From NCBI RefSeq assembly GCF_013410745.1, contig NZ_JACCFY010000001.1, forward strand, positions 1,736,001 to 1,800,000: a DNA stretch of 64,000 bases, written 5' to 3'. Of the stretch, positions 17,030 through 35,761 are shown piece after piece. The position numbers and the translations under genes are program-made. The stretch's first letter is position 1. Each line of letters starts with the position of its first letter. The DNA is from Nesterenkonia xinjiangensis (GTDB lineage: Bacteria; Actinomycetota; Actinomycetes; Actinomycetales; Micrococcaceae). The notes under the pieces are model-generated. The model made no database searches. It saw only the letters and a list, made by a program, of their open reading frames with translations, and was not told where the DNA came from.

Positions 17030-18046
17030 ATGCTGAAGACCACTCGTCCGACCATCGCGGCCCTTGCGGGCGCGGGCCTGCTGCTGACCGCCTGCGGGTC
17101 CGGGGTCGAGGACCCTGCCGATGCCGACGCCGCGGAGGGCCGGACGGACGGCGCGGAGAGCGCCGACGTCTCCCTGGAGAACTGTGGCCAGGAGCTGCAG
17201 TTCGACGCCGCTCCCCAGCGCATCGTGGGGATGAGTCCGGCACAGACTGAGCTGCTGGTGCGGCTCGGCCTGGCGGACCGGATGGTCGGCCTCGCCCAGA
17301 CCGCCTCGTCAGAGCTTCCCGAGGACGTCGGCGCACAGCTGGACGGCGTGGAGGAGCTCAGTGAGGACATGCCGCCCGCACGGGAGATACTGATGCAGGT
17401 GGAGCCCGACTTCGTGTACGCGCCGACCAGTTACGAGTTCAGCGCCGACCAGGGCTTCGCCAGCATCGAGCAGCTCGCCGAGGCGGGAGCGGCCCCCTAC
17501 ATCGCCACCGGCGGCTGCTTCGAGCGGCGCGCAGAGGGGACCGTCGAGGACCTGTTCGTCGATATCGAGAACCTGGGGGAGATCTTCGCCGCCGAGGAGT
17601 CCGCCGCCGAGCTGATCGCCGACGGCCGGGAGCGTCTCGACCAGGCAGCCCAGCTCAGTGAGGACGCCGAGCCGCTGACGGTCGCCCAGGTGTACGTGGA
17701 GGGCGACTCGATCTCGGTGGTCGGAGGTGGCGTGGAGTACGACATCATCGCCCAGGCCGGTGGGGACAACGTCTTCTCCCCGGATGAGGAGCAGTTCTCC
17801 TCCTTCGTGTTCGCGCAGATCAGTGCCGAGGAGCTGGCCGCCCGGGATCCCGAGGCGATCACCTTCGGCGTCGAGGACGCCGCCCACGAGGAGGCCACTC
17901 GGGAGTACTTCGAGCAGAACCACGCGGAGATCCAGGCGGTGCAGGAGGATCGGCTGATCCCGGTGCCGAACCATCACCTGTTCCCCGGCTCGCTGCAGAA
18001 CGTGGATGCCGTCGAGCTGGTGGCCGAGGGTCTGTACGGGGACTGA
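17030..18046 (+). CDS. Iron-chelate ABC substrate-binding lipoprotein
   Basis: A 338-residue lipoprotein: signal peptide with lipobox LLTAC (Cys22), an acidic linker, then a FecB/BtuF-like fold with RIVGMSPAQTELLVRLGLADRMVG and MPPAREILMQVEPDFVYAP. It captures the chelate outside the membrane for the permease and ATPase just upstream (62-base gap). The order permease-ATPase-binding protein is less common than binding protein first. It is convergent with the exporter-fold ABC pair. The ligand is unknown; Fe(III)-siderophore or another metal complex are the main options. Confidence 0.88.
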   Translation: MLKTTRPTIAALAGAGLLLTACGSGVEDPADADAAEGRTDGAESADVSLENCGQELQFDAAPQRIVGMSPAQTELLVRLGLADRMVGLAQTASSELPEDVGAQLDGVEELSEDMPPAREILMQVEPDFVYAPTSYEFSADQGFASIEQLAEAGAAPYIATGGCFERRAEGTVEDLFVDIENLGEIFAAEESAAELIADGRERLDQAAQLSEDAEPLTVAQVYVEGDSISVVGGGVEYDIIAQAGGDNVFSPDEEQFSSFVFAQISAEELAARDPEAITFGVEDAAHEEATREYFEQNHAEIQAVQEDRLIPVPNHHLFPGSLQNVDAVELVAEGLYGD

Positions 18047-18088
18047 GCCACGCCGACCCGTCAGCAGCGGCGACGGCGGATGGGGCTC

Positions 18089-19786
18089 TCACAGTGCGAT
18101 GACCCGGTCCGCCGTCGCGGCGGTGCTGGCCCGGTGCGAGACCGTCAGCACGGTGCATTCCAGGGAGCGGATCAGGCCGGTGATGCCGGCCTCCGTCTCC
18201 GCGTCCAGACTGGCGGTGACCTCGTCGAGGATCAGCAGCGCAGGGCGCTGGACCAGCGCCCGCGCCAGGCAGAGTCGGGCGCGCTGACCTCCGGAGAGCC
18301 GCAGCCCGGTCTCGCCGAGCTCGTCCTCCAAGGAGATCCACCCATCGGCGCCCACGGCGCGGAGAGCGATCTCGAGCTCCTCGTCAGGAAGCAGTCCGTC
18401 CGGTGCTCTCATCCGCAGATTCTGCGCCACCGTGCCGCGGAACAGGCGTGACTCCTGGTCCACCACCGCCACCCGGGCGCGGAGTTCCGCCTCCGGTATC
18501 GCCTGCGGGCTCCGGCCCGGCAGAGCACTGTCAGGGACGATCAGCTCCACCTCGCCCGCGCTGGGCCGCCACAGCCCCGACACCAGGTTCACCAGCGTGG
18601 TCTTTCCGACGCCGGAGGGCCCGGTGATGGCCACATGCTCACCGGGGTGCACGGTGATCTCCGGGTAGCGCAGCTCCCCCCGGCCCGGGTGGCGGTGTCG
18701 CAGCCCCCGGAGCCGTATGCCCCAGGCGGCCGCCGGGGGACGACTGGGCTCGGCTCGGCCGGGCGCATCCGCGGGACCGTCGTCGGTGCGTTCTCGTGAC
18801 GCCGGGGAGAGGGCGCCGTCCTCGAGCTGTGCGGCGACCCGCGCGGCGGAGGCCTGCAGGGGGTGCAGGCGCCCGAGGGTGTCGGCGGCCCCGATCAGCG
18901 GAGCCAGGCTCATCATCGCCAGGGTCACCGCCGCGGCCATCAGCTCCGGCGCCACCGCACCGCGGAGGCCCAGCAGTAGGACCGCGAGCAGCGCCCCCAC
19001 CGTGAGAAGGTCACGGGCGCCCTCCGCGAGGTTCTGGAGAAGAGCCGCCCGGCGCTCGTGACGGCTGATGCGCCCGGTGCGCAGCTCCGCCTCGGCGACG
19101 ATCCGGTCGGTGAGCGAGAAGCTCAGGATGTCGCGGGCGTTGCCGAAGACATCGGTCAGGAACGTGGAGAGGCGGCTCGTCTCCTCCTGCTGATCCTGTC
19201 CGGCTTGGGTCAGGCGTCCTCGCAGGAACAGGCCGCTGGCCATCAGCAGGGCCCCCAGCATCACCACGGCCGCCCCCATCGCCGGGTCCAGCAGGCTCAG
19301 CGCGACAGCGCCCACCGCGAACGTCAGCAGCGCCGAGGCGATCTGCGCGATCGTATGGGCATAGAAGAACTCGAGCTTCTCCAGGTCGGTCAGTGCGGTG
19401 GCGGCGGCCTCCCCGGAATGGGCCTGCCGCCCCTCGACTACCTGGGCCGCGTAGGAGTCGAACAGACGCATCCGCAGCAGATCGAGGACCCGGTACGCCA
19501 GGGCGTGGGAGATATCCATCTCGTGCCAGGTCAGCAGCACTCGTCCAGTCACAGCGAGGCCCAGAGCCCACCAGAATGCCGCTGGCGGCAGGGTGTTCAG
19601 CACCACGGCGTGCCCCACGCCCCAGGCTCCCATCACCGTGATCGCCATCAGTGAGGACCAGCCGGCCCAGGAGGCGAACCCCGTCCAGAGCATGGGGCCG
19701 GCCATGGGACGCAGCAGCCGCAGCAGCACGAGCATCGGGCGGGGGCCCGCACTGTCTGCCTGGACGTGTCCTCCGAGGGCGGTCAC
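18089..19786 (-). CDS. Exporter-fold ABC half-transporter (permease-ATPase), second of pair
   Basis: A 565-residue protein with an N-terminal six-helix ABC membrane domain and a C-terminal ATPase: Walker A GPSGVGKTT near 388-396, signature LSGGQRARLCLARAL near 495, Walker B LLILDEVTASLD. It starts with GTG at 19786, overlapping the stop of its partner (GTGA), so the two probably form a heterodimer. The arrangement resembles CydDC and IrtAB. Because it faces a FecCD-type importer, a metallophore-related role is plausible, but direction and substrate are not shown. Confidence 0.85.
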   Translation of the reverse strand: MTALGGHVQADSAGPRPMLVLLRLLRPMAGPMLWTGFASWAGWSSLMAITVMGAWGVGHAVVLNTLPPAAFWWALGLAVTGRVLLTWHEMDISHALAYRVLDLLRMRLFDSYAAQVVEGRQAHSGEAAATALTDLEKLEFFYAHTIAQIASALLTFAVGAVALSLLDPAMGAAVVMLGALLMASGLFLRGRLTQAGQDQQEETSRLSTFLTDVFGNARDILSFSLTDRIVAEAELRTGRISRHERRAALLQNLAEGARDLLTVGALLAVLLLGLRGAVAPELMAAAVTLAMMSLAPLIGAADTLGRLHPLQASAARVAAQLEDGALSPASRERTDDGPADAPGRAEPSRPPAAAWGIRLRGLRHRHPGRGELRYPEITVHPGEHVAITGPSGVGKTTLVNLVSGLWRPSAGEVELIVPDSALPGRSPQAIPEAELRARVAVVDQESRLFRGTVAQNLRMRAPDGLLPDEELEIALRAVGADGWISLEDELGETGLRLSGGQRARLCLARALVQRPALLILDEVTASLDAETEAGITGLIRSLECTVLTVSHRASTAATADRVIAL

Positions 19787-21534
19787 GCGTCCTCCTCCAG
19801 GTGGGTGGACGGCGGGCCCGCTGTGACGGACGAGGCGGCGTCGAGCGGCCGGAGCAGGCCGCTCTCGAGATGCCATCGCTGGTCGGCGACGGCGGTGACG
19901 TCGTCGCGGTGGCTGATGACGAGCACGATGCGGCCCTCGGCCCGCTCACGGAGCCGCGACAGCACATGCCTGGCGCTGTCCGTGTCCAGGGCGCTGGTCG
20001 GTTCGTCCATCAGTAGGACCGGCCGGTCGGCCAAATAGGCGCGCGCGATGGCCACGCGTTGGGCCTGCCCGCGGGAGAGTGAGGCTCCGCCCTCGGTGAT
20101 CAGAGTGTCCAGGCCTTCGGGGAGCTCGGCCAGCAGCCCGTCGAGGCCGGCATCGGCGCAGGCGTCCAGGGTCATGGGGGTGTCGACGTCGTCGGGCGCC
20201 GCGAGGCAGAGGTTCTCGCGCAGGGTTCCGGAGAGCAGCGACGGCGTCTGAGAGGCCACGGCGATCTCCTGGGGATGAGGGCGGCGGTCGGCCAGGGTGA
20301 CCTGCCCGGACTCAGGCTCCAGCAGCCCCAGGACGATGTCGAAGAGGGTGGACTTCCCTGCTCCCGAGGGCCCGGAGATCACCGAGATCCGGTCAGGGAG
20401 GAACTCGGCCTCGACGCCGCGCAGAACAGGTGAGACGGTGCGCGGATACTGATGGTGCACACCCTCGAGACGCAGCGAACCGGATGCTCGCCGCCGGCGC
20501 CTGTCGTCAGGGCCGGGGTTCTCCGGTGGCGCCGGGGAGGGCGGGTCGGCGTCGAAGGCTCCATGCTCGCGCAGCGTGCCCACCGCGGAGAGGCCGAGGA
20601 ACCCGGCGTGCCACTGCTGCGAGACGTCCCGGATGGGGCGGAACGTCTCGGAGGTCAGCACAAGCACCGCGAAGATCCGAAAGGGGTCCTCTGCGACGGC
20701 GGCGAAGGGGGTGGCCAGCAGCCCGCCGTCGCTGACCCCGGCTGCGGTGAGGATCGCCAGTGCGGACGCCACCGCGGTGCCGGCCTGGATCATCAGATCC
20801 AGGATCCCGCTCTCCCACAGAGACGTCCGCATGGTCCGCACGGTCTCTCGGTGGAGCCGCGCCGAGCGCCGCCGCAGCGCCCGGCGCCGCGCCGGGACCG
20901 CGCCGAGCAGCTGCAGAGTCCGCATCCCCTGCAGGCTCTCCTGGACGTCGGCGCTGAGATCGTCATAGGACTCCCAGCGCTCTCGGGAGCGCGTGGTCAT
21001 CCACCGGTTGAAGGCTCGCGGTGCGACCACGGCGAGGAGCACGAAGATCGCCAGGACTCCGGCCGCCGCAGGGGAGAATGCCGCCATGGCCAGCACCAGC
21101 AGAGGGCAGAGCGCGGCCACCTGCGCCACATGGGGCAGGTAGCGGGTGAGGTAGGCGTCGACGCCGTCGACCGCGTCCACCGCGGTCAGCCGGGCGGACC
21201 CGGCGCGACTGGCGACATCATGCAGACGTTCTGGCACCAGGAGGCGACGCAGCACCCGTACCCGCATCTGACGGCGGATCGCCGTGCCCAGGTCCGAGGC
21301 GAGACGCTGCTGATGCTGCCGCAGCAGCAGCCGCGTGACGGCGGCCATCGCCAGCACGCCGAGCCACAGGGCGCCGAGGCCCGGGCGCGCCTGCACCACT
21401 GCGGTCAGGGCTCCGGCGACGGCCAGCGCCTGGACGAGATGGGTGAGCGAGACGCCGACCAGCGCGCCCGTCACTCGTCGGAACCGGTGGCGGTGATCCC
21501 GGGAGAGGTGGACGAGCTCAGGGACGATCATCAT
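19783..21534 (-). CDS. Exporter-fold ABC half-transporter (permease-ATPase), first of pair
   Basis: A 583-residue protein: membrane domain, a disordered linker rich in Pro and Asp, then an ATPase with Walker A GPSGAGKST (near 387) and Walker B VLLMDEPTSALD. The signature motif is LSRGQ instead of LSGGQ, and the partner has the canonical form, so the two ATP sites are probably unequal. ATG 21534 is chosen because AGGTGAT precedes it; GTG 21543 is the alternative. A Zur-like box lies about 110 bases upstream. It resembles CydD/IrtA-type subunits, but it lacks the siderophore-interacting domain of mycobacterial IrtA. Confidence 0.83.
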   Translation of the reverse strand: MMIVPELVHLSRDHRHRFRRVTGALVGVSLTHLVQALAVAGALTAVVQARPGLGALWLGVLAMAAVTRLLLRQHQQRLASDLGTAIRRQMRVRVLRRLLVPERLHDVASRAGSARLTAVDAVDGVDAYLTRYLPHVAQVAALCPLLVLAMAAFSPAAAGVLAIFVLLAVVAPRAFNRWMTTRSRERWESYDDLSADVQESLQGMRTLQLLGAVPARRRALRRRSARLHRETVRTMRTSLWESGILDLMIQAGTAVASALAILTAAGVSDGGLLATPFAAVAEDPFRIFAVLVLTSETFRPIRDVSQQWHAGFLGLSAVGTLREHGAFDADPPSPAPPENPGPDDRRRRRASGSLRLEGVHHQYPRTVSPVLRGVEAEFLPDRISVISGPSGAGKSTLFDIVLGLLEPESGQVTLADRRPHPQEIAVASQTPSLLSGTLRENLCLAAPDDVDTPMTLDACADAGLDGLLAELPEGLDTLITEGGASLSRGQAQRVAIARAYLADRPVLLMDEPTSALDTDSARHVLSRLRERAEGRIVLVISHRDDVTAVADQRWHLESGLLRPLDAASSVTAGPPSTHLEEDA

Positions 21535-21650
21535 GAGGATCACCTGCCGAGGCGGGGAGGACTGAGGTGGGAAGGGCCGGGACGGGGAGAGTCGGTCCGA
21601 TGTGGCGCCGGTCGCGTCGACCCGGGCGGTCGGTGCTCACCGTATATCAA

Positions 21651-21667
21651 ATGGGAATCGTTTTCAT
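21651..21667. promoter_or_regulatory. Zur-like box upstream of the ABC pair
   Basis: ATGGGAATCGTTTTCAT contains TGGGAATCGTTTTCA, which agrees at 11 of 15 positions with the actinobacterial Zur consensus TGAAAATGATTTTCA as I recall it. On the minus strand it lies just upstream of TTGATATAC, a possible promoter for the ABC pair. Confidence 0.5.
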
Positions 21668-21830
21668 GAGGACGCCGTGGTTCGTCCGGGCTGCGCGGCC
21701 GCCTCCCGCAGAAGGCCGGGGCGGTTCCTCATTCCACCTGCCGCGAACGTGACACGGTGGCAGGTGCCGTTGTCAGGCACTGCCAGTACTCTGGTGCGCT
21801 AGGTGTGTCCCCTGTGTCTGACGGAGCTGC

Positions 21831-23822
21831 ATGAACTTGAAGAAGATCTTCACCGGTCCGCTGTTCTGGATCCTGCTGGCGGTGGCGGCGCTGCTCATCG
21901 TGGTGCCCATGCTGTTCTCCTCGGGCCAGACCGGCTCGCGGGTGGACACCAACATCGGCATGGAGCTGATCCAGGACGGGCAGGTCTCCGAGGCGCGGAT
22001 CGACGACGGCGACCACCGGGTGGACCTGCACCTCACCGAGCCTTATGAGCAGGACGGCGAGGACCTCGGCGACGTCGTGAACTTCCATTACTCGCAGGCT
22101 CGCGCGGAGACGGTGGTCGAGGCGATCGCCGACGCGGATCTGGACGGGTACACCGATGAGCCGGAGCAGTCGAACTGGCTGCTCTCGCTGCTCAGCTTCA
22201 TGATCCCCTTCCTGCTGATCGCGCTGCTGTTCATCTGGCTGATCACCCGCATGTCCGGCGGGAACTCGCGAGTCATGCAGTTCGGCAAGTCCAAGGCGAA
22301 GATGTTCGACAAGGACATGCCGCAGGTGACGTTCCACGACGTCGCCGGCGCGGAGGAGGCTGTGGAGGAGCTCCACGAGATCAAGGAGTTCCTCTCCGAG
22401 CCGGAGAAGTTCCAGCGGCTGGGTGCGAAGATCCCCAAGGGTGTGCTGCTCTACGGACCGCCGGGCACAGGCAAGACGCTGCTGGCCAAGGCGGTCGCCG
22501 GTGAGGCCGGCGGCGCCTTCTACTCCATCTCAGGCTCCGACTTCGTGGAGATGTTCGTGGGCGTCGGCGCCTCCCGTGTGCGTGACCTGTTCAAGCAGGC
22601 CAAGGAGAACTCCCCGGCCATCATCTTCGTGGACGAGATCGACGCCGTCGGCCGCCAGCGCGGTGCCGGCGTCGGCGGCGGCAACGACGAGCGCGAGCAG
22701 ACCCTGAACCAGCTTCTGGTGGAGATGGACGGCTTCGAGGCCAACGCGAACATCATCGTCATCGCCGCCACCAACCGCCCCGACGTGCTGGACCCCGCCC
22801 TGCTGCGTCCCGGCCGCTTCGACCGGCAGATCCCGGTGGAGGCCCCGGACTTCGCCGGCCGCCGCGCCATCCTGGAGGTCCACTCGAAGGGCAAGCCCCT
22901 GGTGGAGGACCTGGACCTGGGCTCCATCGCGCGCAAGACCCCCGGCTACACCGGTGCTGACCTGGCCAACGTGCTCAACGAGGCTGCGCTGCTGACCGCC
23001 CGCTCCAACGCCGATCTCATCGATGATCGTGCCGTGGACGAGGCGATCGACCGTGTCATGGCCGGCCCACAGAAGCGCACCCGGCTGATGAAGGACCACG
23101 AGCGGCGGGTCACCGCCTACCACGAGGGCGGCCACGCGCTGGTCGCCGCGGCGCTGAACTACTCCGCCCCGGTCACCAAGATCACCATCCTGCCGCGCGG
23201 CCGCGCCCTGGGGTACACCATGGTCGTCCCGGAGGATGACAAGTACTCGACCACACGCAACGAGCTGCTGGATCAGATCGCCTACGCCATGGGTGGCCGG
23301 GTCGCCGAGGAGATCGTCTTCCACGATCCCTCCACCGGCGCGGCCAACGACATCCAGAAGGCCACCGACATCGCCCGGAAGATGGTCACCGACTACGGCA
23401 TGAGCGCCAAGGTCGGCTCCGTGAAGCTCGGCTCCGGGGACACCAGCCCCTTCCTGGGCAAGGAGATGACCACCGGCAAGGAGTATTCGGAGGAGCTCGC
23501 CGCGGTCGTCGACGCCGAGGTGCGCGTCATCATCGATGAGGCCCATGACGAGGCCTACTGGGCCCTCCATGAGAACCGCCATGTGCTGGACCGTCTGGCC
23601 GAGGAGCTGCTGCGCGTGGAGACGCTGAACGCCAAGGAGGTCGCAGACATCTTCCACGACGTCACCAAGCGGCCGCGCCGCGAGGTCTGGGAGTCCTCCC
23701 CGGAGCGTCCGATCATCGTCACCACCCGCACCGCCCCGGACTCCCCGGACTCGGCTGAGGGCGAGTTCATCGGCACCGAGCCCGGTGAAGCCGCCGGAGA
23801 CTCCCGGGGGGAGAGTCGATGA
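21831..23822 (+). CDS. ftsH: ATP-dependent zinc metalloprotease FtsH
   Basis: A 663-residue membrane AAA+ protease. Two membrane segments (about 10-30 and 115-138) flank a short extracytoplasmic domain. Walker A GPPGTGKT is at 209-216, Walker B is IIFVDEID, the SRH region is [20 protein letters not shown], and the zinc site is HEGGH (431-435). It degrades misfolded and regulatory membrane proteins as a hexamer. ATG 21831 follows GGAG. Its stop overlaps the folE start, a linkage typical of actinobacteria. The C-terminal tail is short and Pro/Glu/Ser-rich. Confidence 0.97.
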
Positions 23823-24421
23823 GCAGCCCTACGAGCCCTGAGCACCCGCAGGACGGCCCGGTGGACCTGCCGCGCATCGAAGCCGCAGTCCGGGAGATCC
23901 TGGTGGCCGTGGGGGAGGACCCCGAGCGCGACGGGCTCAAGGACACCCCTGCCCGCGTGGCGCGTGCCTACCAGGAGGCGTTCCGAGGGCTCCATGAGGA
24001 CCCCTCCGAGCTGCTGGAGACCACCTTCGACATCGGGCACGAGGAGCTCGTGCTGGTGCGTGACATCCCTTTCTACTCGATGTGCGAGCACCACCTGGTG
24101 CCGTTCTTCGGGCACGCGCACATCGGCTATATCCCGTCGGCGGATGGGAAGGTCACCGGGCTCAGCAAGCTGGCCCGCCTGGTGGACATCTTCGCCAAGC
24201 GCCCTCAGGTCCAGGAGAACCTCACCACGGAGGTGGTGGAGGCGCTCATGGCGAATCTGGAGCCGCAGGGCGCAATCGTCGTCATCGAATGCGAACATCT
24301 CTGCATGTCCATGCGGGGCGTCTCCAAGCCCGGTGCAAGAACCATCACCTCGGCAGTGCGCGGACAGCTCCGTGACGCCGCAACCCGTTCGGAGGCCATG
24401 AGTCTCATCCTGCATCGCTGA
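23819..24421 (+). CDS. folE: GTP cyclohydrolase I
   Basis: A 200-residue enzyme converting GTP to 7,8-dihydroneopterin triphosphate, the first step of folate synthesis. [21 protein letters not shown] holds the zinc Cys and His residues; the second zinc Cys is in [14 protein letters not shown] 23819 overlaps the ftsH stop (ATGA). This is the normal cytosolic type I enzyme at usual length. Confidence 0.96.
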
Positions 24422-24433
24422 GCCGCGCCTGAC

Positions 24434-24460
24434 GCCGTCGGCCAGAGCCGGCCTGACGGC
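24434..24460 (+). other. Hairpin between folE and folP
   Basis: GCCGTC-GGCC (24434-24443) pairs with GGCC-T-GACGGC (24450-24460), 10 pairs with one bulged T and a 6-base loop. No T-run follows. It may be an RNA processing or attenuation element, and folP has its own strong AAGGAGG. Confidence 0.4.
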
Positions 24461-24517
24461 GGTGCGGAGGGCCCTCGCCCGGGCCGCCCGGCGGTACGAC
24501 CCTGAAGGAGGACCCTG

Positions 24518-25459
24518 ATGGACACCATGGGCGCAGCGCCGGGCACAGGCCCCAACACCGGACCGATGAGCGTGGTCCGACGCATCCCTCGCAAGAAGAC
24601 GGTGGGCGATCTGCCCACCGACCGCACCCTGGTCATGGGCGTCCTCAACGTCACCCCGGACTCCTTCTCCGACGGAGGTCGATTCCTGGCGCGTGCGGGC
24701 ACCGCAGTGGACCACGAGTCGGCGGTCCATGCCGGGCTGTCCCTGCACTATGCGGGAGCTGACATCATCGACGTCGGTGGGGAGTCCACCCGACCCGGAG
24801 CTCAGCCGGTGGATGAGCAGGAGGAGCAGCGCCGCATCCTGCCGGTGCTGGAGGCGCTGTTCACCGGCGGGGCAGTGGTCTCCGTGGACACCCGTCACCC
24901 GGGCACCGCGGCGGCCGCGATCGAACGGGCCCCGGGGCCGGAGCACCTGCTCATCAACGACGTCTCCGGGCTGATGACTGCCGAACACATGCCGCAGGTC
25001 GTGGCCGAAGGCGGTGTCAGGGTGATCGTCACCCACAACCGCGGGGACGCGCAGACCATGCAGTCCCGCACCGACTACGTCGACGTCGTCGCCGAGGTCA
25101 TCGGTGAGCTGGAGCAGATCCGCGACCGCTACCGGCAGGCCGGGGTGCCGGCGGAGCGGATCATCCTCGATCCCGGCATCGGCTTCGCCAAGACCGCCGA
25201 GCAGAACTGGGAGCTGCTGCGTCACCTGGACCGGGTCGTCTCCCTGGGGCATCCGGTGCTGCTGGGGGTCTCCCGCAAGGGATTCCTCGGGGAGCTGCTC
25301 GCCGCCTCTGAGGGGCCACGTGAGCCGGAGGGCCGCGACGCCGCCACGCTGGCGCTCAGCACCCTGGCGGCACAGGCCGGAGCGTGGGCCGTGCGGGTGC
25401 ACGACGTCGGTCCGACCCTGGACGCCATGAAAGCGGTTGCAGAGATTCAGTCCCGCTGA
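24518..25459 (+). CDS. folP: Dihydropteroate synthase
   Basis: A 313-residue TIM-barrel enzyme joining p-aminobenzoate to dihydropterin pyrophosphate; the target of sulfonamides. LVMGVLNVTPDSFSDGG, DIIDVGGESTRPGA and ILDPGIGFAKTAEQNW are the three hallmark segments. About 35 extra N-terminal residues precede the barrel. ATG 24518 follows AAGGAGG. In this genome the next folate gene (folB-folK) is separated by a secreted-protein gene. Confidence 0.95.
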   Translation: MDTMGAAPGTGPNTGPMSVVRRIPRKKTVGDLPTDRTLVMGVLNVTPDSFSDGGRFLARAGTAVDHESAVHAGLSLHYAGADIIDVGGESTRPGAQPVDEQEEQRRILPVLEALFTGGAVVSVDTRHPGTAAAAIERAPGPEHLLINDVSGLMTAEHMPQVVAEGGVRVIVTHNRGDAQTMQSRTDYVDVVAEVIGELEQIRDRYRQAGVPAERIILDPGIGFAKTAEQNWELLRHLDRVVSLGHPVLLGVSRKGFLGELLAASEGPREPEGRDAATLALSTLAAQAGAWAVRVHDVGPTLDAMKAVAEIQSR

Positions 25460-25692
25460 GGCGGCGTCCGGCATCACGCGACGACGCGCCGCGGGCCTGT
25501 CGAGGGCAGGCCGTCCCATGTGATTGACGCTGTGAGCGCTGGGATCACCTGACGTTGTCGATCGCTGCCATGGAGTGCTCCGTCGATCCTCCGAGCATCT
25601 GCCTGTCAGGAGTGAACCCCGCCCACGTGTGGGCTGTGCAGGCGCTTCCATCGTCGGAGGCCCGCCGCCTGCTGAGCTTCGTCGTCAGCCCG

Positions 25693-25711
25693 TGACCTTA
25701 CTGGTAGGTCA
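25693..25711. promoter_or_regulatory. Candidate operator upstream of the CHRD gene promoter
   Basis: TGACCTTACTGGTAGGTCA: 6-bp perfect arms with a 7-base spacer, ending 12 bases before the -35 box. The size suits a TetR-type or similar dimeric regulator; no candidate gene is adjacent. Confidence 0.35.
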
Positions 25712-25723
25712 TCTTCAAACCCC

Positions 25724-25753
25724 TTGACTGATCTGTCGATGGTTGCATACTGT
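25724..25753 (+). promoter_or_regulatory. Sigma-A type promoter of the CHRD gene
   Basis: TTGACT (25724-25729), 18-base spacer, TACTGT (25748-25753). One of the clearest -35/-10 pairs in the window. Confidence 0.6.
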
Positions 25754-25902
25754 CACTATTTGGAGGTCCCTGCTCGCAGGGGTTCTCTGCGGCTCATGCA
25801 TCACGTGCTTTCGAGGAAGAGGCCTCCAGTGGTGTGTGCATGAGGGGTGACATGCCGAGAACGACTTGTCGTTCATTGAAAAGCAGAAGAAAGGGTCATG
25901 AC

Positions 25903-27489
25903 ATGACTAGCAGGTTCGCGGGGGAATCCCGCAGGTGGCTGAAGGCTGTCACGACGACAGCAGCCGCCTCAGCACTAGTCCTCGGGGGAGGGATCGCGAC
26001 GGCGACCGTCGGCCACGCCTCCGGCGAGCACGACGGCCACGGCGGCGGTGACGCCTCCGGCCAGCACGACGGCGGCCACGATGGCGGCCACGGGGGAGGT
26101 CACGACGGGCACGAGGGTGGCGACGCCTGCGAGTTCTTCCTGGAGCACATGTGGGCCAACGAGGACGGCATCCCGCTGCTCGGAAGCTTCGCCCACGTGA
26201 ACGAGTACCACACGGATCCGGACTACGAGAACCTCGTCCTCTCGCTGGCCAGCGGCGCCATCGGAAACTCCGAGATGCCGATCATCGACATCTACGGCGG
26301 CCCCCTGGGATGGATTCCGGTCTTCAACCCCTCACACGTGAAGGGCCACAACACGGACTACGTCACGCTGCTCACCTCCTGCGGAGGCATCGGCATTCCG
26401 CTGGACAGCAACGACCTGACGACCCTGGACGTCCCCTCGGCCGATGAGCTGGCGGACCTCTCGGACCTGATCGTGCCGGGTCTGCCGTCGCCGGAGATGA
26501 TCACGGATCCTGACTACCTGTGGGAGACGACTGACGCCTCCGCCATCCTGGACCGCGTCACGCCTGAGACGCTGCTCAACCTGGAGGAGTACGTCGGCTT
26601 CGCCGGGGACCACTTCGACACCTGGCGCCTGCTCTGGGAGACCGCGCTCGATGACGTGACCAGCGGCAACCCCACCGGAACTCTTGAGCTCCTGCAGATC
26701 ACCGAGAACATCAACACCCTGGAGTCGCTGGCCGACGTCGTCGGTGAGGATGCTCTGGGCGACCTGCTGGGTGAGGACGACCTGGGCGGCCTGCTCGACG
26801 CGGGCGACCTGGAGAGCGTCTTGGAGCTGGACGGCCTTCTGGACGAGAGCGGCCTGGGCGGCGTCCTCGACCAGGGCGGCCTGGACGGTCTCCTGGAGCT
26901 GGAGGGCGTCCTCGATGAGGGCGGCCTGGACGGCATCCTCGACGGCGGCGGCCTGGACGGCGTCCTGGACGAGGGTGGCCTGGACGGCATCCTCGACGAG
27001 GGCGGCCTGGACGGCCTGCTCGAGCTCGAGGGTCTCCTCGACGAGGGTGGCCTCGACGGCATCCTCGACGGTCTCCTCGGCGGAGGCGACTCTGGCGGCC
27101 TGCTCGGCGGAGGCGGCCTCGGCGGCCTCCTCGGCGGCGGCGGCGACAGCGGCGATGTGTCCACCGAGACCAAGTACACGGTGCTGCTCTCCGGAACCGA
27201 GTCCTCGGGCCTGGGCCAGTGCCAGGGCACGCTGACCGACAACACGCTGACGGTCAACTGCCTGTACGCCGACACCACCTCCGAGGTGACCTCGGTGACT
27301 CTGCAGACCGCGGGCAGCGACCTTGAGCTGACCGCCACCGGAGGCACCAGCGGTGCGGCCGGAGGCAGCTTCGAGCTGACCTCGGAGCAGGTCGCCGCGC
27401 TGCAGGCCGGCGAGTCCACGCTGACGGTGAGCACCACCGGCTACGCCGAGGGTGAGATCAGCGGCAGCGTCGAGCTGTGCTGCGACTGA
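25903..27489 (+). CDS. Secreted CHRD-domain protein with His-rich N-terminus and Gly/Leu/Asp repeats
   Basis: A 528-residue protein. Signal peptide (about 1-38, charged n-region RRWLK and Ala-rich core); a His/Gly/Asp-rich stretch with seven to eight His (about 36-70); an unfamiliar globular part (about 70-280) with a Cys pair; about 130 residues of repeats based on DEGGLDGIL; then a C-terminal domain (about 421-524) that ends LTSEQVAALQAGESTLTV and YAEGEISGSV, the pattern that closes CHRD (chordin) domains. No LPXTG, SLH or C-terminal membrane segment is seen. ATG 25903 follows AAAGGG. It has its own promoter and terminator. Role unknown; adhesion, matrix or metal binding are guesses. Confidence 0.8.
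   Translation: MTSRFAGESRRWLKAVTTTAAASALVLGGGIATATVGHASGEHDGHGGGDASGQHDGGHDGGHGGGHDGHEGGDACEFFLEHMWANEDGIPLLGSFAHVNEYHTDPDYENLVLSLASGAIGNSEMPIIDIYGGPLGWIPVFNPSHVKGHNTDYVTLLTSCGGIGIPLDSNDLTTLDVPSADELADLSDLIVPGLPSPEMITDPDYLWETTDASAILDRVTPETLLNLEEYVGFAGDHFDTWRLLWETALDDVTSGNPTGTLELLQITENINTLESLADVVGEDALGDLLGEDDLGGLLDAGDLESVLELDGLLDESGLGGVLDQGGLDGLLELEGVLDEGGLDGILDGGGLDGVLDEGGLDGILDEGGLDGLLELEGLLDEGGLDGILDGLLGGGDSGGLLGGGGLGGLLGGGGDSGDVSTETKYTVLLSGTESSGLGQCQGTLTDNTLTVNCLYADTTSEVTSVTLQTAGSDLELTATGGTSGAAGGSFELTSEQVAALQAGESTLTVSTTGYAEGEISGSVELCCD
26755..27155 (+). repeat. Degenerate 27-base repeats encoding Gly/Leu/Asp units
   Basis: The stretch encodes repeats of about 9 residues (DEGGLDGIL and variants DQGGLDGLL, DGGGLDGVL), two of them extended by ELEG, ending in Gly-rich GGLLGGGG. 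GGCCTGGACGGC recurs at near-regular spacing. Such DNA is prone to slippage and to assembly error. Confidence 0.8.
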
Positions 27490-27533
27490 CCGCAGCGGCA
27501 CCTCTGTCAGTGTCGAGCTGACCTGACAGTCGC

Positions 27534-27574
27534 AAGGGGGTGGAACCCGGGGGAATCCCGGATTCCACCCCCTT
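27534..27574 (+). terminator. Terminator after the CHRD gene
   Basis: AAGGGGGTGGAA (27534-27545) pairs perfectly with TTCCACCCCCTT (27563-27574); the 17-base loop can fold further. The tail CTTCTGT is only weakly T-rich. Confidence 0.75.
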
Positions 27575-27647
27575 CTTCTGTGGGCGCGGAGAGTCTGGAG
27601 ACGCGATGTGGGTTCAGGATCGGCGCGGAATGGGAGAAGGTAGAGGC

Positions 27648-28715
27648 ATGCGCAGTGACACGATCCGCCTGACAGGCATCTCCGCCGTGGGCCACCATGG
27701 GGTCTTCGAGTTCGAGAGGCGGCAGGGCCAGCCGTTCCGGGTGGACGCCGAGCTCGACGTCGACCTGCGCGTCCCCGGCCGATCTGATGCTGTGGAGGAC
27801 ACGGTCTCCTACGTGGAGATCGCCGAGCGGATCGAGGCCGCGATCACCGGTGAGCCGTATGACCTCATCGAGGCGCTGGCCCAGCGGATCGCCGCCGACA
27901 TCCTCGCCGCCGACGTCCGCGTCACCGCTGCCGCCGTCACGGTCCACAAGCCCCAGGCGCCGCTCGAGCAGAGCTTCGCCGACGTCTCCGTGACGGTGCA
28001 CCGCACGCGCGCGGAGACCGTGGGGGAGCTGGAGCAGGAATCGAGGGAGCCCCGCGGCCGGGAGCAGGAGAGCCCCGCACACGAACACGACTCCGGCCGC
28101 ATCCTTACTCCCACGGCCGCGATCGGCGGCTACGACACCGTGCCCTTGGGCGCAGAGCCCACCGACGGGTCCACAGGCAGGCCCCGCGCCGATCAGCTGC
28201 GCGATCCGGACCTCCCCGCAACGTTCCCGGTCCGTGCGGTGCTCGCCCTGGGCTCCAACCTGGGAGACTCTGCGCAGATCCTCGACGCCGCCGTCGTCGC
28301 TCTGGAGGAGGACGAGCAGGTGGCCGTCGTACGGACCTCCCCACGAGCGCTCACCGCTCCTGTGGGCGGCCCGCCAGACCAGCCGGACTTCCTCAACCAG
28401 GTGGTGGAGGTCGAGACCTCGCTCTCGCCGCATGGGCTGTTGGACCTGGTCCAGCGCATCGAGGCCGAGCACCACCGCACCCGCGAGATCCGCTGGGGTC
28501 CGCGCACCCTGGACGTGGACGTCATCACCTACGCCGGATCGCACATCGACTCCCCGCGGCTGACCGTTCCGCATCCACGTGCTGCGCAGCGCGCCTTCGT
28601 GCTGCTGCCCTGGTCCTGGATGGACCCCATCGCGCTGCTCGACGGCGTCCCTGTCCGCGAGCTCGCCGCCGGTGCCGCCGACGTCGACGGCGTCCGCCCC
28701 GAGGTGGCCCCATGA
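27648..28715 (+). CDS. folK: Fused dihydroneopterin aldolase / HPPK
   Basis: A 355-residue fusion. The N-terminal FolB part (1-120: IRLTGISAVGHHGVFEFERRQGQPF) converts dihydroneopterin to 6-hydroxymethyl-dihydropterin. A charged linker of about 70 residues follows. The C-terminal FolK part (about 195-345: AVLALGSNLGDS, RWGPRTLDVDVITY, VPHPRAAQRAFVL) pyrophosphorylates it for FolP. ATG 27648 follows GAGAAGG and GAGG; an upstream ATG at 27606 is less likely. This is a folB-folK fusion. Its stop overlaps the DUF3180 start. Confidence 0.93.
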   Translation: MRSDTIRLTGISAVGHHGVFEFERRQGQPFRVDAELDVDLRVPGRSDAVEDTVSYVEIAERIEAAITGEPYDLIEALAQRIAADILAADVRVTAAAVTVHKPQAPLEQSFADVSVTVHRTRAETVGELEQESREPRGREQESPAHEHDSGRILTPTAAIGGYDTVPLGAEPTDGSTGRPRADQLRDPDLPATFPVRAVLALGSNLGDSAQILDAAVVALEEDEQVAVVRTSPRALTAPVGGPPDQPDFLNQVVEVETSLSPHGLLDLVQRIEAEHHRTREIRWGPRTLDVDVITYAGSHIDSPRLTVPHPRAAQRAFVLLPWSWMDPIALLDGVPVRELAAGAADVDGVRPEVAP

Positions 28716-29416
28716 CGCGCCTGCAGCCCATGTGGCTGCTGATCATCGCCGCCGGCTCTGCCCTCGTCGGATTCCTGGCCACGGTGCTGATGGTCTCGAA
28801 CGGCTACGGCTCGCCGGTGCTGACCCCGGTCTCGCTGATCACTCTCGGAGGTGTGGGGCTGGTGGTCCTCGGCCTGGGCATCGTGGTGTGGGTGGACCAG
28901 CGACGCCTCGAGAGCGACGCCGACCAGGCCCGACGCGACGCCGACACCACGGAGCGCCCCGCGGCGGACAGGCAGCCCCGGCGTCGCGGACCGCGCCCAG
29001 GGCGACGCCTGCATCCGCTGGAGGCGGCCCGGGTGGTGGTCGCCGCTCAGGCCTGCGGCTACGCCGGGGCGGTGATCGCCGGCTGGCACGGCGGAGCGCT
29101 GATCGATCTTGCCCCCGCGGCCGGGCTGGCGGCCCCGAACGCGTCCGCCGCGCTGCTGATGATCATCGGCGGCCTGGCGTGGGTGATCATCGGCTTCGTG
29201 GTGGAGCATCTCTGCCGCCTCCCCCCGAACAGGGGCGGCGACGGCGGCAGGGAGACCCGGGGAGGAACCTATCGGGACTTCGGTCCGGAGCCCGGTGCCG
29301 CCAGCGGCACTGCCGCGCGTCAGGTCGTCCAGGCGCCGGGCGACGGCATCCACACACATCCACTGCGCGGCACGGTCCGCGCTCACAGACGAGAAGAGGA
29401 GGGACATGCCGGCTGA
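28712..29416 (+). CDS. DUF3180 family membrane protein
   Basis: A 234-residue protein with four membrane segments in two pairs (about 8-28, 36-58, 107-127, 146-165), separated by a basic cytoplasmic loop rich in Arg. The C-terminal about 65 residues are hydrophilic. It matches the DUF3180 family found right after folK in actinobacteria. Function unknown. It overlaps folB-folK by 4 bases and the next gene by 11, so it is operonic. Confidence 0.85.
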   Translation: MTRLQPMWLLIIAAGSALVGFLATVLMVSNGYGSPVLTPVSLITLGGVGLVVLGLGIVVWVDQRRLESDADQARRDADTTERPAADRQPRRRGPRPGRRLHPLEAARVVVAAQACGYAGAVIAGWHGGALIDLAPAAGLAAPNASAALLMIIGGLAWVIIGFVVEHLCRLPPNRGGDGGRETRGGTYRDFGPEPGAASGTAARQVVQAPGDGIHTHPLRGTVRAHRREEEGHAG

Positions 29417-29915
29417 ACCCATTGACCCGGCGGGAGTCACCTGGACCCGGGTCGACGAGCGCTACATCACCGTCAGGATGATCACCGGTGTGATCGGCTG
29501 GGTGGTGACGCTGACGATCATCGCCGTGCCGATCGTGCTGGACATCATCGGAATCATCAGCCTGCCGCTCTGGCTCGAGCTGGTGGTCGCCATCGGTGCG
29601 CTCCTCTGGGCCGCCGTCGACATCTTCCTCATTCCCCGCCGGATTCGAGCCATCGGCTACCACGAGCGCCCGGACGACCTGCTGATCCGTCGGGGCCTGC
29701 TCTTCCAGAAGGTCGTGGCCGTGCCCTACGGGCGCCTGCAGTACGTGGACATCGAGGCCGGTCCGCTGATGCGCCGCTTCCAGCTGTGCACGGTCCAGCT
29801 GAAGACTGCCTCCGCGGCGACCGACGCCGTCATCCCCGGTGCTCATCGGGATGAGGGCGCGCGGCTGCGTGAGGAGCTCTCTGCACGTGGCCAGGCCCGC
29901 CTGGCCGGACTGTGA
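29406..29915 (+). CDS. PH domain (bPH2/DUF304) membrane protein, YdbS-like
   Basis: A 169-residue protein. Two closely spaced membrane segments (about 27-70) are followed by a bacterial PH domain with DDLLIRRGLLFQKVVAVPYGRLQYVDIEAGPLMRRF. ATG 29406 follows GAGGAGGGAC. Bacillus YdbS/YdbT homologues form a pair, as here, and protect against certain bacteriocins. That role is family knowledge and not shown here. Confidence 0.87.
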   Translation: MPAEPIDPAGVTWTRVDERYITVRMITGVIGWVVTLTIIAVPIVLDIIGIISLPLWLELVVAIGALLWAAVDIFLIPRRIRAIGYHERPDDLLIRRGLLFQKVVAVPYGRLQYVDIEAGPLMRRFQLCTVQLKTASAATDAVIPGAHRDEGARLREELSARGQARLAGL

Positions 29916-29925
29916 GGGGGCGGCG

Positions 29926-31668
29926 ATGACGCAGGCCGAGACGGACGAGCCCGGTCAGAAGTGGTTCGACGAGACCTGGACCAAAGTGCACCCGCTGAGC
30001 CCGTTCGTGCGCGGCTGGCTCACGGTGATCGCTGTGCCCGGCATCATCTTCGGCTACAACTGGGAGATCTGGGCGGACCTGTGGCACATGTACCGCTCCG
30101 GGGAGCTGTGGGACCAGGTGGACCGCCACCCGCTGATCTTCCTGGCCGGAGGCGGGGGGATGTTGCTGCTGCTGATCGTGGTCTTCGGCGGATTCGTGCT
30201 CTCCTGGTGGTTCACCCGGTACAAGATCACCGATGAGCACGTGATGGTGAAGTCCGGGATCTTCGTGCGCCAGCACCGGCAGGCCCGGATCGATCGGGTC
30301 CAGGCGGTGGACCTGCGGCAGCCGCTGCTGGCCCGGTTCACCGGGCTGGCAGAGCTGAAGTTCGAGGTGGCCGAGGGCGACGGCACCGCGGCGACCCTCG
30401 CGTTCCTGAAGAAGCCCCAGGCCGAGCAGCTGCGCGCCGACATCATGGACCGCGCGTCCGGCAAGGCGCAGTGGCGTCAGCAGCAGGCGGAGGCCGCAGG
30501 AACGCACGCCGCCGGGTCGGCGCACGACGGCGACCCGCGGCCCGTGCCTCCGCCCGGCGTCGAGGACGCTGGCGGGCGCGTCCCGGGCGCTGGCTACAGC
30601 GTCGATCCGGGAGGAGCCGCCCCCGAGCAGGGCCCTCACGCCCCGCTGTTCCAGGAGGTCCCCGACCGGGAGGTCACCCGCGTCCCCACCGGTCGGCTGG
30701 TCGGGTCGGTGCTGATGGGTTGGGGCACGATCCTGCTGGCGATCATCGCCGGCTTCGGCCTGATCGGGGCGGTCGTCGGCGGCATCGTCTCGCTGGTCAT
30801 CGGTGTGGAGGATCCGCTCGGGCAGGTCGGCTCGGCAGTCAGCCTGATCGGTGCGGGGATCCTGCCCAGCCTCATCCCGGTGGGCCTGGTGGTCATCACC
30901 ATGTACTACCAGCAGTTCAGCGGGGGCTTCCGGTTCACCGCCACCATGACCGGCGCCGGGCTGAAGATGCGCTACGGCCTGCTGGAGACCACCACCCAGA
31001 CCGTCCCGCCGGGCAGGGTCCAGGCGCTGCAGATCCACCAGCCGCTGCTCTGGCGTCCCTTCGGCTGGTTCCGCGTGCTCGTCGTCGTCGCCGGCTACGG
31101 GGTCGGGGAGAAGCGATCCGTGCTGCTGCCGGTGGGTCGGATGCAGGAGGTCATGGCGGTGACTGCGGAGATGTTCCCCGACCTGAAGGTCCCCCATCCG
31201 GAGCAGGTCGTCACCGAGGGCCTGCTCGGTTCGGGGACGGAGTTCGGCTTCACCGAGGTGCCGCGCCGGGCGCGGATCTTCGACCCGATCGTGCGCCGTC
31301 GGCGCGGATTCTTCATCACGCCCAGCGCGCTGATGTTCCGTGACGGGCGGCTCTCCCGGAGGCTGACCCTGATGGCCCATGAGCGTATCCAGTCGCTGGC
31401 GCTGCAGCAGGGGCCCTGGCAGCGGGCCAAGCGGCTGGCCGACATCCAACTCCACACTCCGGCCGGCCCGTTCCAGATGCAGCTGTCCAACCAGGACCTG
31501 GACGCCGCCCAGTGGCTGTTCGAGCATGAGTCCCGGCACGCGGCCTTCGCCCGCCGGATGAGTGATCGCAACCACTGGATGCTGCCTGAGGAGCTCCATG
31601 AGTTCGAACGCATGGTCAGTCAGGTGGGAAGTGGCCCTGGAGGGGAGCCGGATGAACGTCGTGGCTGA
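29926..31668 (+). CDS. PH domain (bPH2/DUF304) membrane protein, YdbT-like
   Basis: A 580-residue protein with several membrane segments and repeated PH domains: TRYKITDEHVMVKSGIFVRQHRQARIDRVQAVDLRQPLLARFTG (pieces, first domain), then a second after residue 330 (MRYGLLETTTQTVPPGRVQALQ) and a third near 465. A Pro/Gly-rich disordered linker lies at about 185-245. It starts 10 bases after its small partner and overlaps the following gene by 17 bases. The paired arrangement suggests a membrane complex. Confidence 0.87.
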   Translation: MTQAETDEPGQKWFDETWTKVHPLSPFVRGWLTVIAVPGIIFGYNWEIWADLWHMYRSGELWDQVDRHPLIFLAGGGGMLLLLIVVFGGFVLSWWFTRYKITDEHVMVKSGIFVRQHRQARIDRVQAVDLRQPLLARFTGLAELKFEVAEGDGTAATLAFLKKPQAEQLRADIMDRASGKAQWRQQQAEAAGTHAAGSAHDGDPRPVPPPGVEDAGGRVPGAGYSVDPGGAAPEQGPHAPLFQEVPDREVTRVPTGRLVGSVLMGWGTILLAIIAGFGLIGAVVGGIVSLVIGVEDPLGQVGSAVSLIGAGILPSLIPVGLVVITMYYQQFSGGFRFTATMTGAGLKMRYGLLETTTQTVPPGRVQALQIHQPLLWRPFGWFRVLVVVAGYGVGEKRSVLLPVGRMQEVMAVTAEMFPDLKVPHPEQVVTEGLLGSGTEFGFTEVPRRARIFDPIVRRRRGFFITPSALMFRDGRLSRRLTLMAHERIQSLALQQGPWQRAKRLADIQLHTPAGPFQMQLSNQDLDAAQWLFEHESRHAAFARRMSDRNHWMLPEELHEFERMVSQVGSGPGGEPDERRG

Positions 31669-32572
31669 TCCGTACCCGAGCGGGAGCGACCCGTCCCAGC
31701 GGGACGGGAGGCTGGGCGTCGGAATCATCTCCGCCGGCAAGGTGGGAGTTGTGCTGGGCGCCGCCCTGCGTGGAGCGGGGCACCAGGTCGTGGGTGTCCA
31801 CGCGGTGTCGGAGGACTCCCGCAGCCGGGCCGAGTCGCTGCTCGACGGTGTTCCGGTGCTGCAGATCCCGGAGATCCTGCGCCGCTCGGAGCTGGTGCTG
31901 CTGGCGGTGCCGGACGACGTGCTGGGCGAGGTCGTCGCCGGCGCCGCCGAGGCCGGGCACTTCCAGCCCGGGCAGCTGGTCATCCACACCTCGGGCCGGT
32001 ACGGCACCGAGGTGCTCGCCGCTGCCCAGCGGGCCGGTGCGATCACTCTGGCGATCCATCCGGCCATGACGTTCACCGGGCTGAGCATGGACCTGCAGCG
32101 GCTCAGCACCTGCGCCTTCGCGGTCACCGCGCCGGCCCCGGTGCTGCCCATCGCCCAGGCGCTGGTGGTCGAGATGGGTGGGGAGCCGGTGACCGTCGCT
32201 GAGCGCGATCGGGGCATCTATCACGCCGCTCTCGCCCACGCCTCGAACCATCTGAACACCATCACCGGGCAGTCCTCGGAGATGCTGCGCCGCATCGGTG
32301 TGGAGGCTCCGGATCGGGTGCTGGGCCCGCTCATGCAGGCGTCCCTGGACAATGCGCTCTCCTCCGGGGAGGGGGCGCTCACCGGGCCCATCGCCCGCGG
32401 TGACGTCGGCACCGTGGCTCACCACGTGCAGCTGCTCAGCGAGTCGCAGCTGCCCGCCGACGTCCGCACCGCCTACGTGCACATGGCGCGGGCCACCGCC
32501 CAGCGCGCCCTGGACCGCGGGATCATCACCGAGGCCCAGGCCGCGGAGATCCTGGACGCGCTCGCCGAATGA
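31652..32572 (+). CDS. Rossmann-like and DUF2520 domain protein
   Basis: A 306-residue protein with an N-terminal NAD(P)-binding fold (GVGIISAGKVGVVLGAALRGAGHQVVGV) and a C-terminal helical DUF2520 domain (AIHPAMTFTG, YHAALAHASNHLNTI). The architecture is like ketopantoate reductase or 6-phosphogluconate dehydrogenase, and it lies next to panC in actinobacteria. A role in pantothenate synthesis, perhaps as the reductase, is therefore possible but unproven. ATG 31652 follows GGAGGGGAG and overlaps the PH gene. Confidence 0.85.
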   Translation: MNVVADPYPSGSDPSQRDGRLGVGIISAGKVGVVLGAALRGAGHQVVGVHAVSEDSRSRAESLLDGVPVLQIPEILRRSELVLLAVPDDVLGEVVAGAAEAGHFQPGQLVIHTSGRYGTEVLAAAQRAGAITLAIHPAMTFTGLSMDLQRLSTCAFAVTAPAPVLPIAQALVVEMGGEPVTVAERDRGIYHAALAHASNHLNTITGQSSEMLRRIGVEAPDRVLGPLMQASLDNALSSGEGALTGPIARGDVGTVAHHVQLLSESQLPADVRTAYVHMARATAQRALDRGIITEAQAAEILDALAE

Positions 32573-32626
32573 GTCGGCCCCACCGGCTCGGCGTCACGCA
32601 CCCCGGCGGGGCATCGAGGCCCGGAC

Positions 32627-32638
32627 TACGATGGACCG
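32627..32638 (+). promoter_or_regulatory. Leaderless-type -10 box of panC
   Basis: TACGAT (32627-32632) is 6 bases before the GTG at 32639. Confidence 0.55.
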
Positions 32639-33571
32639 GTGACAGAACCGCAGGTCCTCACCACCGTCCCGGGCTTCCGCGCCGCCCTGGCCGAGCTGCT
32701 CGCCGTGCGCCGGGATGCCGGGGTCGTCGCCGCCACCGTGGGCCTGGTGCCCACCATGGGTGCTCTGCATCCGGGTCACGCGGCGCTGGCCGACGCCGCC
32801 CGCGAGCACTCGGACATCGTGGTCGCCTCGGTCTTCGTGAACCCTCTGCAGTTCGACGACGCCGAGGACTACCGGCACTATCCGCGGGACCTCGACGCCG
32901 ACATCGATATCCTCGCCTCCCATGGGGTGGACCTGATCTTCGCCCCCGCTCTGGAGGAGATGTACCCAGGCCATCCGGACGGGCCTCTGGTGCGGGTCAG
33001 CGCCGGGGAGCTCGGTCGCCGCTGGGAGGGAGCCTCCCGGCCGGGACACTTCGACGGGGTGGTCACGGTGGTCACCAAGCTCTTCCACATCATGGCCCCG
33101 CCGATCTGTGCAGATGTCAGCGCGAGCTTCGAGGCCTGGTTCGGGGAGAAGGACGCTGAACAGCTGGCGATCATCCGCCGGATGGTCACGGATCTGGACC
33201 ACGAGGTCACCATCCGCTCGGTGCCGATCGTCCGCGACGACGACGGCCTCGCCCTCTCCAGCCGCAACCGGCGGCTCAGCGCGCAGGACCGCGAGCACGC
33301 CCTGCAGCTCTCGGTCGCGCTGACCGCCCTGGCCCGCCGGGCCGAGGCGGGGGAGAGGCTGGACCTCGAAGGCGTCGTCGCCGGACTGCAGGCGGCCGAG
33401 GGGGTGGGTCTGGACTATCTGGTCGTCGTCGAGCCGGCCACGCTGCGCCCGGTCGAGCTGCCCGCCGACGGCGTGCTCGTCGATGAGGCGCTGGCGCTGG
33501 TCGCCGCGCGGGTGGGCCCGGTCCGGCTTATCGATACCATGACGCTGCGCCCTCATGGCGACGCAATGTGA
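32639..33571 (+). CDS. panC: Pantothenate synthetase
   Basis: A 310-residue enzyme joining pantoate and beta-alanine with [14 protein letters not shown] (ATP site), [40 protein letters not shown] and the KMSKS-like [10 protein letters not shown] are visible. The stretch before FGEKD ([15 protein letters not shown]) is longer and less standard than the usual form, so pantoate-site residues there deserve a check. GTG start with a -10 box 6 bases upstream. panD and panB are not in this window. Confidence 0.93.
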
Positions 33572-33669
33572 CACTAGTCGCAGCAGATGTGAAACAGTTG
33601 CTTCATGCATGTAGATCGGGGTGAGTGTCATCCATCTCATCCCCACCCGAGACGAAGGAGCCGGCTGAC

Positions 33670-35670: not shown

Positions 35671-35681
35671 GCGGGCCCCGG

Positions 35682-35735
35682 GCGGCACGCCTGTCCGCAC
35701 CGGAGGCCCTCCTCCGCTGCGGACAGGCGTGCCGC
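35682..35735 (+). terminator. Terminator hairpin after the M13 peptidase gene
   Basis: An 18-bp perfect stem (35682-35699 with 35718-35735) encloses a second stem CGGAGG-CCCT-CCTCCG. No T-run. It ends 12 bases before the lysS -10 box. Confidence 0.75.
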
Positions 35736-35747
35736 TGCGGCGACGCG

Positions 35748-35761
35748 TAGAATGGCACACC
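35748..35761 (+). promoter_or_regulatory. Leaderless-type -10 box of lysS
   Basis: TAGAAT (35748-35753) lies 8 bases before the GTG at 35762; no ribosome-binding site fits. Confidence 0.6.

Follow-up and report, generated by a model that had tools for sequence, protein, structure and literature searches.

A strongly conserved orphan domain in a putatively secreted protein of Nesterenkonia xinjiangensis, a possible extracellular metal-capture protein of actinobacteria

The gene analyzed here occupies positions 25903..27489 on the forward strand of the window, i.e., the whole 64,000-nucleotide stretch of Nesterenkonia xinjiangensis DNA under study, where it lies between folP and folB and encodes 528 amino acids plus a stop codon, read from the ATG at 25903. 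Starting at an upstream GTG would lengthen the protein by 23 residues; the ATG was retained as the start because the short peptide that opens the window protein from residue 1 also opens relatives. These relatives bring the set to 17 members, comprising nine from Micrococcaceae (window included), four from family f13, and four from Brachybacterium. The start codon is preceded by a ribosome-binding-like AAGAAAGGG (25887..25895, + strand) and, about 150–179 nt upstream, by a promoter-like TTGACT followed by a -10-like TACTGT (25724..25753, + strand; alternatively CATACT, 25746-25751). A consensus promoter scan of the region returned one site, with TTGACT and CATACT as first and second hexamers (0.2 in shuffles). 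The pattern TTGA[CG]-N17-19-TAnnnT, picked only after the upstream regions had been inspected, lies no more than 350 bp ahead of the gene in 12 of the 17 members, where shuffles would lead one to expect 0.3. Just 5' of the promoter-like site, an operator-like TGACCT-N7-AGGTCA inverted repeat (25693-25711) is present which, by eye, is not found at the locus of Nesterenkonia sp. PF2B19 (L002). Matches to Zur-, DtxR-, and CsoR-like operator consensuses upstream were only imperfect and scattered, with no conspicuous operator for copper or zinc, and none of 12 5' leaders was more structured than its own shuffles beyond a z of -1.7. Between the gene and folB, an inverted repeat with 12-base arms (27534..27574, + strand) looks like a terminator by eye only; a terminator scan found none and did not call this repeat.

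The protein begins with a signal-peptide-like segment (residues 1-39 or 1-41; 25903..26025) that is kept in relatives and, by a rule-based reading, displays the classical layout with A-x-A cuts, which is consistent with the secretion proposed in a preliminary description of this DNA. In one copy, from a Zhihengliuella MAG (L008, about 5850-5998), no signal peptide can be read ahead of the His-rich tail, and the promoter pattern that other members share is missing. In the window protein, this first segment is followed by a His/Gly/Asp-rich tail (residues 42-73; 26026..26121). Across the 40 residues that lead up to the next domain, the His count ranges from 1 to 8 among the 17 members, the window being highest and Nesterenkonia sp. 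F (1 His) having nearly no such tail. We also weighed an N-terminal X-X-His motif as a copper-binding site but gave it up since it depends on an uncertain signal-peptide cut: rule-based cuts close to the tail place the first His mostly at position 4, 2, or 1, and a His at position 3 would mostly require a rule-disfavored cut.

Residues 276-419 (26728..27159) form a Gly/Leu/Asp stalk with a nonapeptide period. The DEGGLDGIL-type repeats reported earlier were borne out by a self-identity of 51% at lag 9 (z = 9), and of the 16 members whose stalk could be measured, 10 had lag 9 as the strongest of lags 1–30, periodicity in f13 members being computed on the whole C-terminal part. The mature window chain contains 95 Asp+Glu vs 4 Lys+Arg, and other members are acidic as well. 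A period of 9 agrees with the RTX calcium-binding nonapeptide (PF00353), but this candidate was set aside as no PF00353 match was obtained at E up to 10 and the window repeat does not fit GGxGxDxUx, which we take to be the RTX motif. The chain ends in SVELCCD, with neither an LPXTG sortase signal nor a C-terminal membrane anchor.

The C-terminus (residues 432-523; 27196..27471) was assigned to the CHRD domain by Pfam, structure prediction, and fold match. The profile search upheld the earlier CHRD claim with a PF07452 score of 24.1 bits, exactly at the gathering cut-off of 24.1, and reported no other Pfam family for the window protein at E up to 10. CHRD was stronger in three members (34–56 bits in L009, L004, and L005) and also matched in G070, G139, and G155 (G139 providing the same contig as L009); for two Brachybacterium copies, L093 and L094, Pfam gave no detection at E 0.001. 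In f13, CHRD is replaced by CARDB modules, identified with Pfam for L087 and by eye for the other members. The HxH and VHT histidines, which we regard as the CHRD hallmark, occur in Arthrobacter and Pseudarthrobacter members and are missing from the window protein, from Nesterenkonia sp. F, and from each of the four Brachybacterium copies, with one left in PF2B19. The window CHRD is thus no metal site of the HxH/VHT kind, and its C-terminal 115 residues contain no His at all. In a full-length AlphaFold2 run, CHRD was the sole part that folded, as an SOD-like Greek-key barrel whose best structural matches were loop-deleted Cu,Zn superoxide dismutases. A report on human chordin describes a solved CHRD structure with an SOD-like fold, and its authors think SOD activity unlikely (PMC13382577). 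A Cu,Zn superoxide dismutase assignment was rejected for the window protein because the copper and zinc ligand histidines are missing. In two other Nesterenkonia (G020 and G021; loci L066 and L067), a separate and shorter reading frame matches CHRD far more clearly (56 bits). Judged by its sequence, the window protein is a marginal CHRD member with a new head.

This head includes an orphan core domain (residues 74-275; 26122..26727), which is the conserved part of the protein. Among its 202 columns, 116 are invariant across the 17 members, including all six His (82, 98, 103, 145, 149, and 237) and both Cys (76 and 160) of the window core, and the invariant blocks read GGPLGWIP-FNP-HV-GH-TDYVTLLT-CGG and FAGDH---WRLLWETAL. 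Identity to the window core is 78–97%, the lowest value over all 136 pairs, spanning three actinobacterial families, is 76%, and no relative was found below this level. Across 45 pairs from 10 members, core dN is 0.004–0.135, well below dS. Library searches returned no match to Pfam (9 members scanned) or PHROGs (10 members), none below E 0.5 to PDB sequences (matches at E 0.5 or worse being ignored), and no meaningful match of the whole window protein to NCBIfam. Two AlphaFold2 predictions were made, each on 10 sequences gathered before the f13 set and three more of the Brachybacterium copies had come to light. They gave a mean pLDDT of 32 and no usable fold for the related cores, and a pLDDT below 40 with one 4-residue helix for the repeats of the stalk, from a shallow alignment; the fibrous or solenoid stalk suggested earlier is therefore no more than a possibility. 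Two candidate distant relatives were judged chance matches, namely a weak core match in G611 (E 1e-3) to a frame that by eye resembles an alpha-galactosidase, and a match within the repeats in G032 (E 3e-4) obtained with the whole protein as query. Open-licence PMC literature yielded no description of the core, which, being nameless, was searched via CHRD terms; no paper pairing CHRD with Nesterenkonia was found, a CHRD-protein search gave one fungal paper, CHRD combined with secreted and Actinobacteria matched nothing related, and none of the 15 papers listed, out of 2,963 matches, in a broad CHRD/SOD/copper/biofilm search dealt with bacterial CHRD.

The combined architecture noted in the preliminary description, i.e., His-rich start, unfamiliar part of about 200 residues, repeats, and CHRD, is thus confirmed, and the unfamiliar part indeed matches no library domain. 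The emphasis shifts, however: because the core is frozen while f13 swaps CHRD for CARDB, the core is the defining element and CHRD is replaceable. As a domain of 202 residues that is at least 76% identical over three families and matches no library, the core represents, on sequence grounds, a strongly constrained family of proteins that is so far uncharted.

The core is patchily distributed. In partly overlapping genome samples, carriers made up 8 of 395 genomes at family level, 8 of 396 at order level, 4 of 24 in f13, and 4 of 47 in Brachybacterium's family, while the class sample yielded 2 of 394, one being a chance match, and the phylum sample 1 of 396, solely the window's own genome. No copy of the gene was found on plasmids, phages, or viral contigs. 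We used the conserved protease FtsH as a yardstick of divergence in 15 of the 17 members (all but a Pseudarthrobacter MAG, which the FtsH search did not include, and G1011, which lacks the motif used to cut FtsH), and the core was more alike than FtsH in 89 of 105 pairs. Mean core identity was 0.855–0.891 within genera and 0.79–0.84 between families, whereas FtsH, at 0.92–0.95 within genera, where it exceeds the core, fell to 0.67–0.77 between families. This nearly flat core identity with distance led us to suspect horizontal transfer, although saturation of the free core sites could be the cause instead. The core tree is poorly resolved: Nesterenkonia as a single clade was not rejected (p 0.51 for protein, 0.37 for DNA), and group g41 as a clade was rejected (p 0.029).

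Within the genus, the chromosomal site is shared between the window, Nesterenkonia sp. PF2B19, and Nesterenkonia sp. F. A folP search of 30 Nesterenkonia genomes gave a match in 27, and 28 loci were examined for the content of the folP-folB gap. The gene occupies this gap at three loci (the window, G008, and G024), folB follows folP by about 2 to 201 bases at 17, and unrelated genes fill a gap of 0.8–1.1 kb at four; the remaining 4 of the 28 had no folB match, two of them with another gene there and the other two belonging to one genome. Because its contents differ among the 28 loci, the gap is a place of gene gain and loss. Other contents, named by eye, include genes for an ABC-type ATPase, for a His-rich protein resembling cation-efflux systems, and for a pyridoxal-enzyme-like protein accompanied by a GntR-like regulator (compared at window positions 25459-27648 and loci L037, L039, L040, L042, L033, and L038). 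In one Nesterenkonia genome (G026), folP was matched in two pieces (L055 and L056), one with an internal TGA. A frame break located beyond the core splits the PF2B19 gene (L002, 6001-7558), reflecting either a draft error or a real loss.

Neighboring genes outside the genus provide a hint of function. Using the YcnI (DUF1775) protein of genome G920 as query, YcnI was found in 3 of 24 f13 genomes (G920, G978, and G1020), and in all three the core gene ends directly upstream of it; in G1020, where the contig starts within the gene, only a tail matching the C-terminus of the core protein is present. Pfam identified the G920 neighbors as DUF1775 and CopC+CopD+YtkA, and the YcnI and CopC-CopD fusion of G978 are 73% and 64% identical to their G920 counterparts. 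The overlap between core and YcnI in f13 has P = 0.06 with the two full cases (G1020 left out) and 10/2024 = 0.005, calculated by hand, with G1020 counted; as all three genomes come from one genus, they may represent one event. The f13 carriers G941 and G1011 have no YcnI match in the whole genome. In Brachybacterium, a PepSY_TM gene lies directly downstream of three of the four copies, each with a His cluster, identified with Pfam at L006 and, at L090 and L093, by 57–71% identity to L006 and to each other. Neither YcnI, CopCD, nor PepSY_TM adjoins the fourth Brachybacterium copy (L094) or the f13 copy L085, and none of these genes was detected in the flanks searched for the nine Micrococcaceae members, including the 64 kb of the window. 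A neighbor search covering 17 loci and the window, with L006, L090, and L093 left out, recovered YcnI/CopCD at L086 and L087 only, and PepSY_TM nowhere.

The f13 copies have a further neighbor in common, as a gene for an LPXTG-type wall protein (LAATG in L087) precedes the core gene on the same strand in all four. These wall proteins contain LLGG repeats shared with the core protein in three of four cases (the fourth being a fragment), CARDB-like modules by eye in three of four (Pfam CARDB in L085), and collagen-like runs in all three scanned. At L085 (8847-12926), L087 (3617-6568), and L088 (1519-3582), the collagen-like runs take the form (GTD/GSD)n, along with Cys-Cys repeats and LPXTG-type ends. 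A pattern search found no LPXTG-type gene at 12 other member loci or in window positions 18001-36000.

From the observed architecture, conservation, and neighbors, we tentatively read the gene product as a secreted, surface-exposed metal-capture protein, a reading that is the most plausible one yet falls short of even chances, with copper as the likeliest metal. A surface metal collector is suggested because a His-rich tail and six invariant His occur in proteins whose genes adjoin either copper or metal-reductase-type genes in different families, and the wall-protein neighbors together with the exchangeable beta-sandwich suggest a wall or matrix location. The protein would be exported and its signal peptide removed, after which the flexible His-rich tail and the core, presumably tied by a disulfide, could gather Cu(II) outside the membrane through the six His. 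The long, flexible, acidic stalk would hold the core away from the C-terminal beta-sandwich (CHRD in the window, CARDB in f13), which may dock the protein in the wall or matrix, and captured metal would be handed to proteins of the membrane that take it up or reduce it, YcnI-CopCD or PepSY_TM, where these are adjacent. According to three reports, YcnI and YcnJ, the latter through its CopC domain, bind Cu(II) and exchange it outside the membrane, and they aid growth at low copper (PMC12362106, PMC8424229, PMC13344008).

Several observations weaken the metal-capture reading, mainly that the window and its own family show no copper or metal-reductase neighbor; the same holds for the f13 carriers lacking YcnI and for the two copies (L094 and L085) lacking any such neighbor. 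The known PepSY_TM proteins are, according to PMC13038864, heme-dependent ferrisiderophore reductases acting outside the cytoplasm, with CrpH tied to copper. Those known mostly serve iron. The scarcity of the His tail in Nesterenkonia sp. F, the His-free window CHRD, and the lack of a conspicuous copper or zinc operator point in the same direction. The earlier proposal that the His-rich part suggests metal binding stands only in part: it gains support from the neighbors in two other families, which are absent in the window, the His-rich part with its variable His content not being enough by itself.

We weighed three other readings against metal capture. The first, possible though doubtful, is a protein with a structural or adhesive role at the cell surface or in a biofilm matrix, in which the core binds a polymer or another wall protein, the stalk acts as a spacer, and CHRD or CARDB docks; the metal neighbors would then be coincidental or reflect general envelope loci. 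The LPXTG-type genes in f13, with their shared LLGG repeats and collagen-like runs, and the strong acidity of the mature chain fit such a role, as does glycosaminoglycan binding by human chordin CHRD domains, described in PMC13382577. Against it, the LPXTG-type neighbors are confined to f13 among the loci searched, some members match CHRD only weakly or give no detection, and 116 invariant positions of 202 probably exceed the needs of a plain spacer or glue. Such invariance could instead mark a secreted enzyme, with core His, Asp, and Trp within the invariant blocks as active site and CHRD or CARDB as accessory module, and a head-linker-module layout is common in secreted enzymes. We nonetheless consider an enzyme unlikely, given that no catalytic motif was recognized and that neither Pfam, NCBIfam, nor the PDB sequences pointed to an enzyme family. 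Patchy presence and differing chromosomal sites would also befit a strain-variable secreted factor for antagonism or interaction, e.g., a bacteriocin-like protein, but this seems very improbable for a core that is frozen instead of diversifying, with no small partner gene common to the loci beyond close relatives and no copy on a phage, plasmid, or viral contig.

Extending the metal-capture reading, the core might define a new kind of domain for capturing metal outside the cell, serving Gram-positive actinobacteria as a proteinaceous counterpart of a chalkophore. Tethered to the wall by stalk and exchangeable beta-sandwich, it would load YcnI-CopCD importers or PepSY_TM reductases with Cu(II). 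We regard this as speculative and rather doubtful; if true, such a core would add a missing outermost step to bacterial copper import. Should the copper link hold, the protein would represent a concrete candidate for extracellular copper collection by Gram-positive bacteria, a step which the authors working on YcnI-YcnJ call little known (PMC12362106).

Compared with known systems, the window protein shares with CHRD proteins (PF07452; chordin, ExsM-type spore proteins as described in PMC5335551, and FonCHRD) a C-terminal SOD-like CHRD, whereas its head, stalk, and His tail are foreign to that family. PepSY_TM metal reductases such as FoxB and CrpH are represented next to three of the four Brachybacterium copies as neighbors and not as homologs. 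Unlike LPXTG-type wall proteins with collagen-like Gly-X-Y repeats, the window protein carries neither their sorting signal nor a C-terminal membrane anchor, although f13 members have LLGG repeats and partly CARDB-like modules in common with them. Finally, while the window protein matches no DUF1775, CopC, or CopD Pfam model, the f13 core gene directly adjoins, on the upstream side, a YcnI-CopCD pair of the kind that, as YcnI-YcnJ (DUF1775-CopCD), serves copper import in Bacillus subtilis.
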